From NCBI GenBank assembly GCA_022510385.1, contig JAFLTQ010000006.1:62001-126000 (forward strand): DNA of 64,000 nucleotides, read 5' to 3'. A model generated the notes under the pieces. It ran no database searches. It was given only the letters and a program-made list of their open reading frames with translations, and was not told the origin of the DNA. Position 1 is the first letter of the stretch; the number at the start of each line of letters is the position of its first letter. Shown piece by piece: positions 6,283 through 44,069 of the stretch. Both the position numbers and the translations under genes were made by a program. This DNA comes from Muribaculaceae bacterium. Its GTDB lineage: Bacteria; Bacteroidota; Bacteroidia; Bacteroidales; Muribaculaceae.

Positions 6283-7839
6283 TCAAACGAGCTTCAGAGT
6301 CACGATCGAAGCCGCCGGCATCTCGATTTCAAGATGACCGTTTTTAATCTTGGCATCTTTGAAAATTTCTGTCTTAACTTTTTCAGGCGAGTCGAAATCA
6401 TTATAATCAGAAATCTTTTCACCTTTCAGAATCTCTCCGCTTTCGATCTTTCCTACCTTCAGACTTTCAAGCGGAACACTCACCTTAGCTTTATCATCCA
6501 AGGAAGTATTCACCACCGACAAAGTCACCGTGCCATCTTTCTCAGTAGCAGTGGCATTCACCATCGGAACTTTCCTTTCGAAATCTTTTCTTTCAGATTT
6601 CACAGGAGTATAGGGAGTATTTATCTCAAGCGGAATAAATGTACCGCCTTGATGGGGCACATACATTTTAAAGACATAATAAGTGGGAGTGACCACCATC
6701 TTGTCGCCCTGAGTCAGCACCATTGATTGGAGCACATTGGCTATCTGCGCGATATTGGCCATCTTCAGGCGGTCGGAATATTTATGGAAAGCATTAAGAG
6801 TCAAGGCTGCCACCATGGCATCTCTCATAGTGTTCTGCTGATATAGATGCCCCGGATTCGTGCCCGGTTCTACGTTCCACCATGTGCCCCATTCGTCGAG
6901 TATCATTGCCACCCTCTTGTTGGGGTCATGCTTGTCCATTACTTCCGCATGTCTGTTTATGACACTGTCTATTTCCAATGCTTTGCCAAGAGTGTAGTAA
7001 TAAAGCTCGGGAGTGAAGTCTGTGGCCGCACCCTTATCGTTCCAGTTCCACACTGTATAATAATGGAGAGAGAGGCCTTTCATTTGGTTCTTGGCATTTT
7101 TCATCAGCACGTCGGTCCAATTGTAGTCATAATCGCTTGCTCCGGAGGCTATTTTATAAAGCTTGTTGCCGTCGAAATCATGAGCAAAAGTCTGGTATCT
7201 CCTATAGACATTGGAATATTCTTCCGGAGTGAAATTGCCACCGCATCCCCAGCTTTCGTTACCTATCCCTATATATTTCAATTTCCAGGGTTCTTCGCGA
7301 CCGTTTTCCTTTCTCAACTTGGCTTGGGGCCCATCTTTGGCAGTGATATATTCAATCCATTCCATCATCTCCTTCACTGTGCCGGAACCCACGTTGACAC
7401 TCAGATAAGGTTCGATACCCAAAAGCTCGCAGAAATTGAAAAATTCATGCGTACCGAATGAATTGTCTTCCACTGTGCCTCCCCAATTGCTGTTCACCAT
7501 AGTGGGACGCTGATTTTTGGGTCCGATGCCATCTTTCCAGTGATATTCATCGGCGAAGCACCCGCCGGGCCATCTCAACACCGGTATCTCCAGAGCCTTG
7601 AAAGCCTCAATCACATCATTGCGGTAACCGTTGGTATTAGGGATATCGGAATCCTCATCCACCCAGATGCCTCCATATATGCAGCGGCCAAGATGCTCGG
7701 CAAATTGTCCGTAGATTTCCGGAGCCACTACACTTTTTTCCTGACTGACCACAGGAGTTATATCAACATCAATTGTTTTGGCATTTATCGGAAAAATAAT
7801 GCTCAAACCACAGATTAAGGATAGATAAGATGTTTTCAT
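6283..7839 (-). CDS. Alpha-L-arabinofuranosidase, GH51-like, with signal peptide
   Basis: EIYGQFAEHLGRCIYGGIWV, RWPGGCFADEYHWKDGIGP, GIGNESWGCGG, ILDEWGTWW. Confidence 0.92.
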   Translation of the reverse strand: MKTSYLSLICGLSIIFPINAKTIDVDITPVVSQEKSVVAPEIYGQFAEHLGRCIYGGIWVDEDSDIPNTNGYRNDVIEAFKALEIPVLRWPGGCFADEYHWKDGIGPKNQRPTMVNSNWGGTVEDNSFGTHEFFNFCELLGIEPYLSVNVGSGTVKEMMEWIEYITAKDGPQAKLRKENGREEPWKLKYIGIGNESWGCGGNFTPEEYSNVYRRYQTFAHDFDGNKLYKIASGASDYDYNWTDVLMKNAKNQMKGLSLHYYTVWNWNDKGAATDFTPELYYYTLGKALEIDSVINRHAEVMDKHDPNKRVAMILDEWGTWWNVEPGTNPGHLYQQNTMRDAMVAALTLNAFHKYSDRLKMANIAQIANVLQSMVLTQGDKMVVTPTYYVFKMYVPHQGGTFIPLEINTPYTPVKSERKDFERKVPMVNATATEKDGTVTLSVVNTSLDDKAKVSVPLESLKVGKIESGEILKGEKISDYNDFDSPEKVKTEIFKDAKIKNGHLEIEMPAASIVTLKLV

Positions 7840-7855
7840 ATTGGTTTTGGAAATT

Positions 7856-8005
7856 TTATGGTTTTACTGGAAGAGTAAGGCTTACAGGTTGAGGATCGCT
7901 TGTTAAAAGATAATCCTTATCATATTCAAATTCATAATGATTCTTATCTTTTTCAGTCAGCACTCCGGCTTTTATCCCATGCAAAAAGACTTCACAAGCT
8001 CTCAT
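7856..8005 (-). pseudogene. HipA N-terminal fragment (49 aa then stop)
   Basis: Own translation: MRACEVFLHGIKAGVLTEKDKNHYEFEYDKDYLLTSDPQPVSLTLPVKP*; typical HipA N-subdomain pattern ending at SLTLP. Not in the ORF track (below 60 aa). Confidence 0.75.
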
Positions 8006-8022
8006 AAACAACTCTTATTAAA

Positions 8023-8217
8023 CTATTTCAAATCTATTTCCAAACCTAATACTTTACTTATCTGAATGAGGGTCTTAATCTTTGGATTACCTTCTCCTTT
8101 TTCAAGAGAAACTATTGTATTGATATTCACTTCTGCCAAATCCGCCAGTTCCTGTTGAGTTATTTCCAAATTTCTTCTTCTAAGCTTAATGGTTTTTCCG
8201 ATAGTTTCCAAATTCAT
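8023..8217 (-). CDS. XRE-family HTH protein, HipB-like antitoxin
   Basis: IGKTIKLRRRNLEITQQELADLAEVNINTIVSLEKGEGNPKIKTLIQISKVLGL; followed 17 nt later by the HipA N-terminal ORF. Confidence 0.85.
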   Translation of the reverse strand: MNLETIGKTIKLRRRNLEITQQELADLAEVNINTIVSLEKGEGNPKIKTLIQISKVLGLEIDLK

Positions 8218-8230
8218 ACTGTAGTAGTAA

Positions 8231-8263
8231 TTTTATGTAAAATTAATGATTTATTACATAAAA
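8231..8263. promoter_or_regulatory. Perfect 10-bp inverted repeat TTTTATGTAA-n13-TTACATAAAA upstream of hipB-like gene (candidate operator)
   Basis: Direct reading; located 14 nt upstream of the HTH gene start (minus strand). Confidence 0.6.
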
Positions 8264-40168: not shown

Positions 40169-40242
40169 GGACTGGTAGCTCAGCTGGATAGAGCAACAGC
40201 CTTCTAAGCTGTGGGTCGCGGGTTCGAATCCCGCCCGGTTCA
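40169..40242 (+). tRNA. tRNA-Arg (anticodon TCT)
   Basis: ggactggTAGCTCAGctggataGAGCa-acagc-ctTCTaa-gctgt-...gcgggTTCGAATcccgc-ccggttca; cloverleaf folds by hand. Confidence 0.93.
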
Positions 40243-40389: not shown

Positions 40390-40554
40390 ATGGCCAAACC
40401 TATTAGAAATACTCCAATATTATATGGTGAAGATGCAAGACGGTTTCGTGAGGAAATTTCTCATATACCTCCTATAGAAGAAAGGCGAAAAGAAAGAGCA
40501 AGAATTCAGAAAAGCGTCCAAGAACTATATGAAATGATAGAAGCTCTACGATAA
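40390..40554 (+). CDS. Small protein (54 aa), candidate antitoxin of GNAT pair
   Basis: Own translation MAKPIRNTPILYGEDARRFREEISHIPPIEERRKERARIQKSVQELYEMIEALR*; stop overlaps the next ATG by 1 nt (taATGa). Confidence 0.65.
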   Translation: MAKPIRNTPILYGEDARRFREEISHIPPIEERRKERARIQKSVQELYEMIEALR

Positions 40555-41177
40555 TGAATTCCTTTTTTCAGAATATTCCTTATGAGAGATTAAGGGAGTC
40601 TTCAAAATTATTCCCTTTTGATTGTGGCAATTCTGACCTAACGGATTATTATTACCATTCTGCTAAGAAGGATATAGCAAAACTGCTCACTGTTGTTTAT
40701 TATCTGGCGACAGAAGAGACAACAATACTATTTTTTACTCTATCAAACGATAAAATCTCAGAGATTGAACTAAAGAACGGAGAACCAATATATTCAAAAA
40801 GTTTCTTTCGTAGGATAAAAGATAAATTCGGAAGGGCAAAACATCGTCGCGATTATCCTGCTGTAAAAATCGGAAGGTTTGGGGTAAATAAAGAATTCAG
40901 AGGTAAAGGTCAGCATTGGGGTTCAAAGACTTTGGATTTCATCAAGGAGTGGATGATATCTGATAATAAAACCGGTTGTTGTTTTATCACAGTCGATGCA
41001 TATGCCAATGCCGTTGAATTCTATAAAAAGAATGATTTCTTATTTATGGGAGAAAAGGAAAAATCCGGATATGAAAAATGGCTTAAAGAAAATCCCGATT
41101 ATAAAAACAAAGAAATTTCCGGTGACATTCCAACCTTTGCTATGTATTTCAATCTCCTTTCACTTGTTGAAAATTGA
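40554..41177 (+). CDS. GNAT-family acetyltransferase, candidate TacT/AtaT-like toxin
   Basis: RLRESSKLFPFDCGNSDLTDYY...VKIGRFGVNKEFRGKGQHWGSKTLDFIKEWM...VDAYANAVEFYKKNDF. Confidence 0.7.
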   Translation: MNSFFQNIPYERLRESSKLFPFDCGNSDLTDYYYHSAKKDIAKLLTVVYYLATEETTILFFTLSNDKISEIELKNGEPIYSKSFFRRIKDKFGRAKHRRDYPAVKIGRFGVNKEFRGKGQHWGSKTLDFIKEWMISDNKTGCCFITVDAYANAVEFYKKNDFLFMGEKEKSGYEKWLKENPDYKNKEISGDIPTFAMYFNLLSLVEN

Positions 41178-41453
41178 ATATTCTAAATTTTTATTACTCT
41201 CCAATCCAAAAATAATGAAGCCTGACCGGAAATTTCGATCAGGCTCAAATAAGTTGTTAAGAATATAATCATTCCATTGTTGGCAACTTGTGGTATTTCA
41301 TAAAGAATCTATTAGGAGAAGCACAATTAAAGACTTCAATTTTTCTTTCTTCCTTTTTATCTTGACATTGCAGACGCTCAATCTGGAGAATAAACTGAGA
41401 TCTCTGAATCAATATTTGCCGAAATAAGTTTTAAAATCGTCAAAAAAGATCTC

Positions 41454-41498
41454 GCCGACAAATAATGTCGGCAATATTATAAAAATAAAGTAAATTTG
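41454..41498 (+). promoter_or_regulatory. Inverted repeat GCCGAC-n7-GTCGGC followed by -7 box TAAATTTG (candidate autoregulated promoter)
   Basis: IR 41454-41472; TAAATTTG 41491-41498; XRE ORF starts at 41512. Confidence 0.6.
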
Positions 41499-41511
41499 TA
41501 AGGAGAAGGGA

Positions 41512-41739
41512 ATGACCCTTAATCAACTTGCCGAAAAGATAGGAATACAACAGCCATCTATGTCCGGCATTGTTAATGGGAAAATAAAACCATCGCTCGA
41601 CACTCTTGAAAAAATTGCTTCTACATTCGGAGTATCAATCGGAGAATTATTTGATGAAAAGGATTCCAATACTTTCTCTTGTCCTCATTGTGGGAGGAAG
41701 ATGAAAGTTGTCCCGATAGAAAAAGGAAAAGAAAAATAA
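41512..41739 (+). CDS. XRE-family HTH regulator with C-terminal zinc-ribbon
   Basis: LNQLAEKIGIQQPSMSGIVNGKIKPSLDTLEKIASTFGVSIGELF; SCPHCGRKMKVV. Confidence 0.85.
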   Translation: MTLNQLAEKIGIQQPSMSGIVNGKIKPSLDTLEKIASTFGVSIGELFDEKDSNTFSCPHCGRKMKVVPIEKGKEK

Positions 41740-41756
41740 AATATTAAATTTGCAAT

Positions 41757-41945
41757 GCGAGAGGCTGGTAAGAGATCGAGGAAAATCCTCCGCCGCGTCT
41801 CGCTCCAAATATTAGATAAGACCTAAATAATAAAAATTGGCGAGGGCATAGCCGCCGCCTGGTTAATCTAAGAAACTTGGTTATAGGCTCCAAGAGCCTT
41901 GTACCCCGACTCTGGAGGACATTCTTGTTCTCCAGTTTTATTTTT
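41757..41945 (+). ncRNA. Candidate structured ncRNA 1
   Basis: -7 box TAAATTTG (41745-41752), predicted 5' hairpin GCGAGA(41757-41762)/TCTCGC(41798-41803) enclosing GAGGaaaatCCTC, hairpin GGCTCcaaGAGCC, terminal hairpin CTGGAG/CTCCAG + ttttattttt; no ORF. Confidence 0.6.
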
Positions 41946-41974
41946 AGAATAAGGAAGATTTATTAATTTTGAGA

Positions 41975-42178
41975 ATTAGTATTAGGAGACCATGCCCCGG
42001 GGCGTTCCCCCGGACGGATTCATCGACTAATATTTAATTGGAATAAGGCTCAATAGAAGCTACGTATGGAAACATAAGAAACGGAGGAAACAATCGAAAG
42101 GCCTTATTCTAAAAATTACCGCTGGAATGATAGAGTAGCACCGTCATCGGGTTAGCAAATCATTTCAGCGGTTTCTTA
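41975..42178 (+). ncRNA. Candidate structured ncRNA 2
   Basis: -7 box TAATTTTG (41964-41971); ATTA-TATTAG/CTAATA-TAAT stem enclosing CCGGGGcgttcCCCCGG; GAATAAGGC(42041-42049)/GCCTTATTC(42101-42109) enclosing TATGgaaaCATA; 14-bp terminal stem ACCGCTGGAATGAT/ATCATTTCAGCGGT + T-rich tail. Confidence 0.6.
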
Positions 42179-42406
42179 TTTATAATCACCCCGACTTCGT
42201 TTCACAACGCAATCGGGGATTTCTACATAAAGAATAAGTCCATAATTAATGGGAATTAGTAAAATTGTGGATTAAAGAAAATCTCTTAATATATCATCAT
42301 CGGTGAGTTAATCTCCACTTCCACGCATTTCAAAAGTGCCTGTGATAGGTTCAAGAAAAATTGGATCAGTGGAGATATGAAGATGTTCATGAACTATTAA
42401 GAAAAA

Positions 42407-42454
42407 ATGGCAAAACTCGTAGTTGACACAAATGCATTAATACAAATAATTTGA
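42407..42454 (+). pseudogene. PIN-domain toxin N-terminal remnant
   Basis: Own translation MAKLVVDTNALIQII*; matches the PIN-domain N-terminal VVDTNxLIQI signature, then stop. Confidence 0.5.
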
Positions 42455-42484
42455 AATAATAATATGGATTCCCCTTTTTACTAT

Positions 42485-42567
42485 GGGAAAGTGTGCTGAT
42501 TTGGAAATTCAATATTATCCATTAATTTACAATAATTTATAAAGGTAAAATAAGAAGACTGGGGAGT
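42485..42567 (+). repeat. Diverged copy of the core of the 159-bp repeat
   Basis: gtgtgctgatttggaaattc...aatttataaaggtaaaataagaa. Confidence 0.65.
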
Positions 42568-42622
42568 ATTATTTCAATAAAATTATACGTTTATAAATTT
42601 CTCAACTATAAAATTATTATAT

Positions 42623-42630
42623 TAATTTTG
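42623..42630 (+). promoter_or_regulatory. -7 box TAATTTTG upstream of 42660 ORF
   Basis: TAnnTTTG match 30 nt upstream of ATG. Confidence 0.6.
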
Positions 42631-42659
42631 TAAAAGTTTAATCATAAAGTGATTATAGT

Positions 42660-43136
42660 ATGAAAAAATTATTATTGATCGTAGCAGCCATTATTACCGG
42701 AATTTCAGTTTCTGCGCAAGATTTAGAATGGTCGGATCTTGGTGAGGAGATCGCTTCAGGAACCAATGCTTCTGTAGGTGCAATTGAAGAATCTTTTAAA
42801 TCTAATGGTTTGGATGTAAAAGCGTCCACTCATTTTAATCCTTCCACTAATTCTGTGAATATAACTTTTGATTTTGGTTCCTTAGATATTGTTTCTCTTT
42901 TGAATGAAGAATCATTAACAGTATTTAAAGACTCATTTGCTGATGCCTTCGTCCAGGGTTTCCTTGAAGAGCCCGGGACTGATAACAATCTTTTTGTTGA
43001 CCATGTGAAAATAATGGAAAAAGGGAAAGGAGAATATCGGTTGATATTAAAGGGAAATGGAAATTCAAAAGTTATCAGGATTACCCCGCAAGATTTAAAA
43101 AGGGTAGGCGCCAAGAATTATGGTGTGAAATTCTAA
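42660..43136 (+). CDS. Secreted hypothetical protein (158 aa)
   Basis: Signal peptide MKKLLLIVAAIITGISVSAQ; no recognised domain. Confidence 0.75.
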   Translation: MKKLLLIVAAIITGISVSAQDLEWSDLGEEIASGTNASVGAIEESFKSNGLDVKASTHFNPSTNSVNITFDFGSLDIVSLLNEESLTVFKDSFADAFVQGFLEEPGTDNNLFVDHVKIMEKGKGEYRLILKGNGNSKVIRITPQDLKRVGAKNYGVKF

Positions 43137-43214: not shown

Positions 43215-43325
43215 TATCTCTATAATTATTTAGGAACTTGCTATTATCGTTAATCCTTGGCTAACCTCTAAACAAAAATCTTCATCTTCCGGATTACAAT
43301 TTAAAGTTCTCAGGAGACTTTTCCA

Positions 43326-43735
43326 AATAAGCATGTTTGAATGTGCTTATTTGGAAATTTAGTCTTAATATACTAATAGACAAGTATTTATAAAGGTAAA
43401 ATAAGAAACACCGGGGGTATAGGGGAATCTAAAAATAAGATTTCTAAAACAACTCTTTTATTCTAATAGGCATAAAAATGTAAAAATAAGCATGTTTGAA
43501 TGTGCTTATTTGGAACTTTGGTCTTAATGTGTTAATAGACAAGTATTTATAAAGGTAAAATAAGAAACACCGGGGGTATAGGGGAATCTAAAAATAAGAT
43601 TTCTAAAACAACTCTTTTATTCTAATAGGCATAAAAATGTAAAAATAAGCATGTTTGAATGTGCTTATTTGGAAATTTAGACTTAATATACTAATAAACA
43701 AGTATTTATAAAGGTAAAATAAGAAGAAAGTCTGT
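43326..43735 (+). repeat. 159-bp tandem repeat, 2.5 copies
   Basis: gcatgtttgaatgtgcttatttgg begins at 43331, 43490 and 43649 (period 159); long identical stretch taggggaatctaaaaataagatttctaaaacaactcttttattctaataggcataaaaatg. Confidence 0.95.
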
Positions 43736-44069
43736 AGGGAAGGCCCAAGCCGTATTCATTTAACGGGATTTCAGAGTGAGATTCTATCTCTTTCTCCCTA
43801 TTTCCCATAACAAATTTTGAGGTTTTATATCAAAGGAGGTTCCTGACAAATCTTTTTCTAAAAATTACCAATCTCGACATTAATTGATTGTATAAATTAT
43901 TCCTCTCTCTTGCAAGTTATTGTGTTATTTTGTTAAAACATTACAATGGAAACATCTGTTGGCCTTTAGGCTTATTTTTTATAAATTTGCAAAGGTAGCC
44001 TGAAAGAAATAGGCTTAAGAGACTTTAATTATTGCGACCTTTCGCGGCCGCCGAGTAAAAGGAGTAGGT

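Follow-up and report, generated by a model that had tools for sequence, protein, structure and literature searches.

Two candidate small RNA families linked to phages and mobile elements in Muribaculaceae

Introduction

Small RNAs (sRNAs) of mobile elements have been well studied in Escherichia coli prophages and are little known in Bacteroidales. In a Muribaculaceae genome of 2.7 Mb, a stretch packed with predicted hairpins (41757-42225) follows a short XRE-type regulator gene. This locus raises the question of whether the hairpins are RNA genes, to which class such RNAs would belong, and whether the regulator is their partner. Coordinates refer to the window, which is the whole 64,000-nt stretch of DNA that was analysed.

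Predicted transcription units

Two putative transcription units lie inside 41757-42225, each behind a Bacteroidales -7 box, and the sequence features of both were found at the positions given in the preliminary description. The features of the region are as follows.

41455 to 41473, strand not assigned: GCCGAC-n7-GTCGGC palindrome (sequence; terminator-like scan)
41512 to 41739, plus strand: XRE HTH and zinc-ribbon open reading frame (ORF), 75 aa, 5'-truncated (Pfam HTH_3, homologue comparison)
41745 to 41752, plus strand: -7 box of unit 1, TAAATTTG, 4 nt ahead of the first hairpin
41757 to 41803, plus strand: M1, 5' hairpin of unit 1, GCGAGA/TCTCGC (fold z -2.9)
41810 to 41874, plus strand: M2 RNA core (homologues in G047, G123, G200 and G247; pair changes on both sides)
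41912 to 41945, plus strand: predicted intrinsic terminator of unit 1 (terminator scan; fold)
41964 to 41971, plus strand: -7 box of unit 2, TAATTTTG, 6 nt ahead of the first hairpin
41978 to 42036, plus strand: M5, GC-rich hairpin in an AT stem (fold z -2.4)
42038 to 42112, plus strand: M6, GGAATAAGGC/GCCTTATTC stem with a GAAA-capped inner hairpin (fold z -3.2)
42114 to 42174, plus strand: M7 RNA hairpin (homologues in G176, locus L111; G324, locus L112; and phage contig L116)
42186 to 42222, plus strand: M8, CCCCGA/TCGGGG hairpin (fold z -3.9)

Unit 1 is predicted to begin with the GCGAGA/TCTCGC stem and to end in a CTGGAG/CTCCAG terminator with a TTTTATTTTT tail. Unit 2 is predicted to contain a GAATAAGGC/GCCTTATTC stem and a 14-bp terminal stem, and the CCCCGA/TCGGGG hairpin is also predicted. 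Compared with dinucleotide shuffles, the folding energy gave z scores of -4.3 (unit 1), -5.3 (unit 2) and -7.1 (entire region), and none of the shuffles folded as low as the native sequence in any of the three. The earlier proposal that the region holds two structured RNAs, each behind a putative promoter and ahead of a putative terminator, is thus supported.

The TAnnTTTG sequence corresponds to the -7 consensus that PMC7366714 quotes for the housekeeping sigma factor of Bacteroides. It occurs at 41491, 41745 and 41964, and its background in the window is about one per 1.5 kb per strand. Among the homologous loci described below, it lies 2-10 nt upstream of the element at three of the five M2 loci and at one of the four M7 loci, as well as ahead of both units in the window; no such box was found close upstream of the G123 copy of M2 or the L112 copy of M7.

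Comparison with known RNA classes

Rfam placed the RNA elements in no family, and neither a housekeeping RNA nor a riboswitch was found, in line with the first inspection by eye. At gathering threshold the only match in the whole window was a tRNA-Arg at 40169, upstream of the RNA region, and a permissive search of 41200-42700 gave sub-threshold matches only. The M2 core searched alone against Rfam had no match, and no family of Rfam 15, among them tmRNA, 6S, RNase P, SRP, riboswitches and HEARO, matched the RNA elements at gathering score. ARAGORN and Rfam likewise returned no tRNA or tmRNA match for the RNA elements. BLASTn of the region against phage and plasmid collections recovered the tRNA-Arg and an upstream GNAT acetyltransferase gene and, within the RNA, one weak 30-nt match only. 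A type III-like toxin-antitoxin module, which had been put forward as a possibility, is not supported: tandem RNA repeats are absent in 41757-42225, no recognizable toxin gene lies downstream, and the next gene in that direction, at 42660, has no Pfam match.

The M2 family

The core of unit 1, M2, is a single 65-nt hairpin composed of P1 (UUAGAU/AUCUAA), P2 (GACC/GGUU), P3 (GGCG/CGCC) and P4 (GGC/GCC), with a 15-nt A/U-rich bulge on the 5' side, UAAAUAAUAARAAUU, that is nearly invariant and has one variable base. BLASTn against 111 genomes of the genus located the central part of unit 1 in two relatives. With a covariance model and an exact-pattern search across 84,980 species genomes, the total rose to five genomes. 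The M2 set thus comprises five loci: the window, G047 (L087, L097), G123 (L085, L094), G247 (L086, L095) and G200 (L088, L096). The homologues share 89-90% identity and come from four other Muribaculaceae genomes; the named carriers are Muribaculaceae and Bacteroidales MAGs, assigned to the family of the window genome. M2 was not found by the genome scan in other families of the order Bacteroidales. Its distribution is patchy (5 of about 450-500 Muribaculaceae genomes), with one copy per genome.

Three M2 pairs are changed on both sides (UA/GC in P1, CG/UA in P2 and CG/UA in P4), and 96.5% of cells are paired, as against at most 48% with slid partners. Variation is mostly limited to loops and paired changes. 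The terminators are separate from the core and differ in sequence between most loci. Homology is limited to the RNA (48-70 nt) in nine of the ten locus pairs, and the tenth, G047 and G247, has both the RNA and a convergent gene in common. Between these two loci the RNA core is 95% identical, the terminator 100%, the convergent gene 72-83% and the upstream flank 35%, which indicates that the RNA itself is conserved, and more strongly than the gene that accompanies it. The complement of the bulge occurs within the window only at M2 itself, and no target was found there.

Several further candidates were set aside. Locus L084 (G125) scores 29 bits with the M2 model with several pairs broken and was judged an ordinary terminator hairpin, the L004 match is restricted to the promoter stretch, and L074, from a viral contig, is a chance match of a GC stem within coding sequence. 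L092 and L093 fit the bulge pattern but not the model.

The M2 copies stand in diverse surroundings. The G247 copy is in a prophage: a MuF head-morphogenesis gene lies on one side of it and head genes on the other, and a gene for a phage integrase is close by. The MuF gene is convergent with M2, and its C-terminal tip is CdiA_C-like by a weak match (E 0.0024, below the curated cut-off); no obvious same-strand small ORF follows this toxin gene. In G047 this toxin tip recurs at 78% identity, accompanied by an N6-methyltransferase and a further MuF-tip-like ORF. The block common to G247 and G047 consists of the RNA with its promoter and the toxin tip, and the sequence outside it is unrelated. Linkage of M2 to a toxin domain is confined to these two genomes and is not constant across loci, and no relatives of the tip were found in annotated phages and plasmids. 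In G123 the neighbours are a RhuM/PLD-like gene and an AAA/DUF4143 gene, both of which match PADLOC candidate-defence models. The G200 copy lies downstream of a tRNA-Ser, beside a transposase fragment and a tubulin-like/papain-like operon. M2 is convergent with its 3' neighbour in all four of these genomes and not in the window.

Two observations concern the surrounding genes in their own right. In G047 (L087, 1-4263), MuF-like toxin tips without a head part flank the N6-DNA methyltransferase gene. The G200 operon (L088/L096) pairs a tubulin-like gene with one for a 1097-aa protein that contains a papain-like protease domain.

The M7 family

BLASTn of unit 2 against 397 genomes of the family gave two good matches, both at its last hairpin, M7. 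A viral scan added a third homologue on L116, a 4.1-kb phage contig, where M7 lies beside terS and terL. The M7 structure therefore rests on four sequences: the window, L111, L112 and L116. Its 14-bp stem is capped by a near-invariant core, AGAGUAGCA-CCG-UNAU-CGG-GUU(U)AGCAA, and the 27-nt core AGAGUAGCACCGUNAUCGGGUU(U)AGCAA varies only at one loop base and by a single extra U. The outer stem is alike in three loci and is replaced by GGGCG/CGCCC in the fourth. All five outer pairs have changes on both sides, 100% of cells are paired, and the fold z is -6.9.

In L116 and in L111 (G176), a small convergent ORF runs into the M7 3' arm with its last codons. The two ORFs look similar (protein similarity judged by eye), and no close relatives of this small gene were found. 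The L112 copy (G324) has no convergent gene at its end and lies within a row of tRNA-like sequences that neither ARAGORN nor Rfam called. T-rich stretches are present on both strands beside the window copy. The phage-linked origin suggested in the preliminary description is corroborated by one M2 copy in a prophage and one M7 copy in a phage contig, and for the window copy the link is indirect.

The row in G324 (L112 1386-1870; L117 ~7756-8240) comprises four or five such sequences, whose acceptor-like stems are unusually long. Its neighbours, named by eye, are a 1784-aa UvrD-like protein and an accessory FtsZ-like gene.

Hairpins known from the window alone

M1, M5, M6 and M8 had no homologue in the collections searched. 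The two units are therefore real as structured stretches, but support from evolution is limited to M2 and M7, which recur with pairs changed on both sides. Apparent matches of M5 and M6 (L076, L080, L113 and L115) fell in coding-looking sequence and were judged chance matches, including that of M5 to L115, a plausible coding stretch. The four hairpins could have been added locally or could be relatives that have decayed. The two recurring cores adjoin M1, M5 and M6 in the window, and as these three are found nowhere else, the local function of M2 and M7 may have been lost or changed.

The regulator gene and the setting of the window

The gene ahead of unit 1 had been described as a 75-aa XRE protein with a CxxC zinc ribbon. 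The domain assignment stands, with Pfam matches to HTH_3 and HTH_26 and one copy of a CPHC motif, but the ORF is 5'-truncated. The HTH_3 match begins at profile position 10, the HTH domain starts about 10 residues earlier in three homologues (L006, L033 and L034), and the window gene has an in-frame stop at a stretch that all three translate, which indicates the truncation. The protein may be inactive as a result. The palindrome at its promoter is present as described, but an operator role is insecure because the same sequence scores as terminator-like on the minus strand (41474-41452, terminator scan).

A regulator-plus-RNA pair had also been proposed. The M2 model (R2) had no match at any of 18 loci, from other genomes or phage contigs, that have an XRE or GNAT relative, and no XRE gene was seen beside the RNA at the remaining M2 or M7 loci. 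XRE homologues without M2, RNA loci elsewhere without XRE and the truncation of the window gene all argue against the pair. From these comparisons the XRE gene does not look like the partner of the RNAs, and their adjacency in the window looks coincidental.

Relatives of the XRE ORF occur in Bacteroides and Porphyromonas phages and, with up to 59% identity, in viral contigs. Upstream of the RNA region, near the tRNA-Arg, the GNAT acetyltransferase gene (40554-41177) includes a 200-nt stretch 70% identical to the acetyltransferase gene of Bacteroides phage BS-TP1 (BLASTn). The neighbourhood therefore appears phage-like yet partly decayed, since both genes have phage relatives and the XRE gene is truncated. 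Evidence that the window copy was phage-borne is indirect; the RNA region is probably what is left of a phage or of another mobile element. Close relatives of the GNAT gene also occur in G125, G123 and G149, and the RNA is not beside them.

Interpretation and alternative explanations

On balance, we lean towards M2 and M7 being two new sRNA gene families that are carried on phages and mobile elements and act in trans. This reading follows from the recurrence of the cores in unrelated mobile or phage contexts and from their lack of a match to any known RNA family. Each would be an autonomous sRNA gene with a host-type promoter and terminator, unit 1 corresponding to M2 and unit 2 to M7. The housekeeping sigma factor would transcribe each from its TAnnTTTG box, and the RNA would fold into a stable hairpin that displays a conserved unpaired element, which in M2 would be the 15-nt A/U-rich bulge and in M7 the internal loop with the UNAU cap. 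The partner bound in trans by this element could be an mRNA, a second sRNA or an RNA-binding protein, of host or phage origin, and the binding would benefit the mobile element in its host. A trans-acting regulatory or sponge RNA that presents such an element is the function we favour, with the chances about evenly balanced.

The elements might instead act only in cis, as bidirectional terminators or 3'-end stabilizers between convergent genes, with no function in trans. The T-rich stretches on either strand around the window M7 fit this idea, as do RNA 3' ends that overlap convergent gene ends in G247, G047, L116 and L111. Neither the conserved M2 bulge nor the 27-nt M7 core is necessary for a terminator, however, and M2 is followed by a separate terminator that varies between loci while the core stays constant. 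With promoter boxes that abut the elements and a copy of M7 (L112) that ends without a convergent gene, we consider a purely cis role unlikely. The same core within unrelated flanks, the patchy distribution and the truncated XRE gene would also be consistent with selfish or decaying cassettes, in which the cores are small non-autonomous mobile elements or recombinase sites that persist through transposition or recombination rather than through an RNA function in the cell. The window copy would then be debris next to the broken XRE gene. This is doubtful: each genome has a single copy, no common terminal repeat was seen beyond P1, substitutions are mostly in loops or preserve pairs, and the stems of the window copies are still fully paired.

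The surroundings in G247 and G047 raise the alternative of an RNA immunity factor or antitoxin. M2 would neutralize, or repress synthesis of, the convergent CdiA_C-like MuF toxin tip, and M7 would do likewise for the convergent small gene in L116 and L111. In temperate phages a small ORF follows 89.4% of MuF toxin genes (PMC5576092). Like these polymorphic toxins, the product of the G247 gene convergent with M2 is a MuF head protein whose C-terminal tip is variable, but where their expected immunity factor is a small protein, the neighbour here is an RNA gene, and the G247 toxin gene has no obvious same-strand small ORF after it. The common block of RNA, promoter and toxin tip, with unrelated sequence beyond, points the same way, as does the overlap of the M7 3' arm with similar-looking convergent ORF ends. 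Against it, the other M2 neighbours differ, with RhuM in G123, the papain/tubulin-like operon in G200 and none in the window; the weak CdiA_C match is under the curated cut-off; G247 and G047 amount to one lineage; and the L116-L111 protein similarity was judged by eye, with no further relatives found. We regard RNA immunity as improbable on this evidence. Its most specific form, in which M2 and M7 are phage-borne factors that protect the lysogen from a phage head-protein toxin tip or an adjacent small toxin and are exchanged with the toxin cassette, seems quite improbable.

Comparison with described systems

For the preferred reading, trans-acting sRNAs of mobile elements, the closest parallel in layout is in the lambdoid prophages of E. 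coli O157:H7, where sRNA genes lie 3' of morons and convergent with cargo (EcOnc/AgvB class; PMC4104026). M2 and M7 share with these the small size of the sRNA genes, their own putative promoter and terminator and a location in a prophage or phage contig for one copy of each family. Most copies, though not all, are also arranged convergently: a convergent gene is present in G247, G047, G123, G200, L116 and L111 and absent in the window and L112. The O157 set includes an anti-sRNA, AgvB, that acts by base pairing and has A-R-N repeats (PMC4104026). The M2 bulge, read as AAU-AAU-AAR-AAU, fits A-R-N too, with its variable base at the free triplet position, a fit that is suggestive only because there is a single variable site. 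M2 and M7 differ from the EcOnc/AgvB class as folded Bacteroidales cores; the likeness is one of layout, and no relation in sequence or structure is claimed.

Bacteroides has no obvious Hfq or ProQ homologue (PMC7366714). FopS of B. thetaiotaomicron has sigma-ABfr promoters, an intrinsic terminator and a 5' single-stranded seed, is chromosomally multicopy and has been deposited in Rfam (PMC11697453). M2 and M7 resemble FopS and GibS (PMC11697453) as Bacteroidales sRNA candidates, whereas, unlike FopS, they are stable hairpins, single copy and linked to mobile elements, and no Rfam family matched them. A collection of candidate structured RNAs from human microbiomes also holds structures linked to Bacteroidetes phages (PMC8040213); M2 and M7 are new relative to Rfam, and overlap with that collection is possible.

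As compact covarying families found in phage and island settings of gut Muribaculaceae, M2 and M7 offer probes for the roles of phage RNAs in Bacteroidota and for the protein that such RNAs use. Because M2 and the toxin tip occur together in two genomes, RNA-based immunity can be tested directly.

Repeat downstream of the RNA region

Further downstream, the window contains an intergenic 159-bp tandem repeat (43325-43801) in 2.5-3 copies, with a hairpin. The 59-nt tail of this repeat also occurs singly at 42500-42558, with 68-75% identity, before the 42660 gene.
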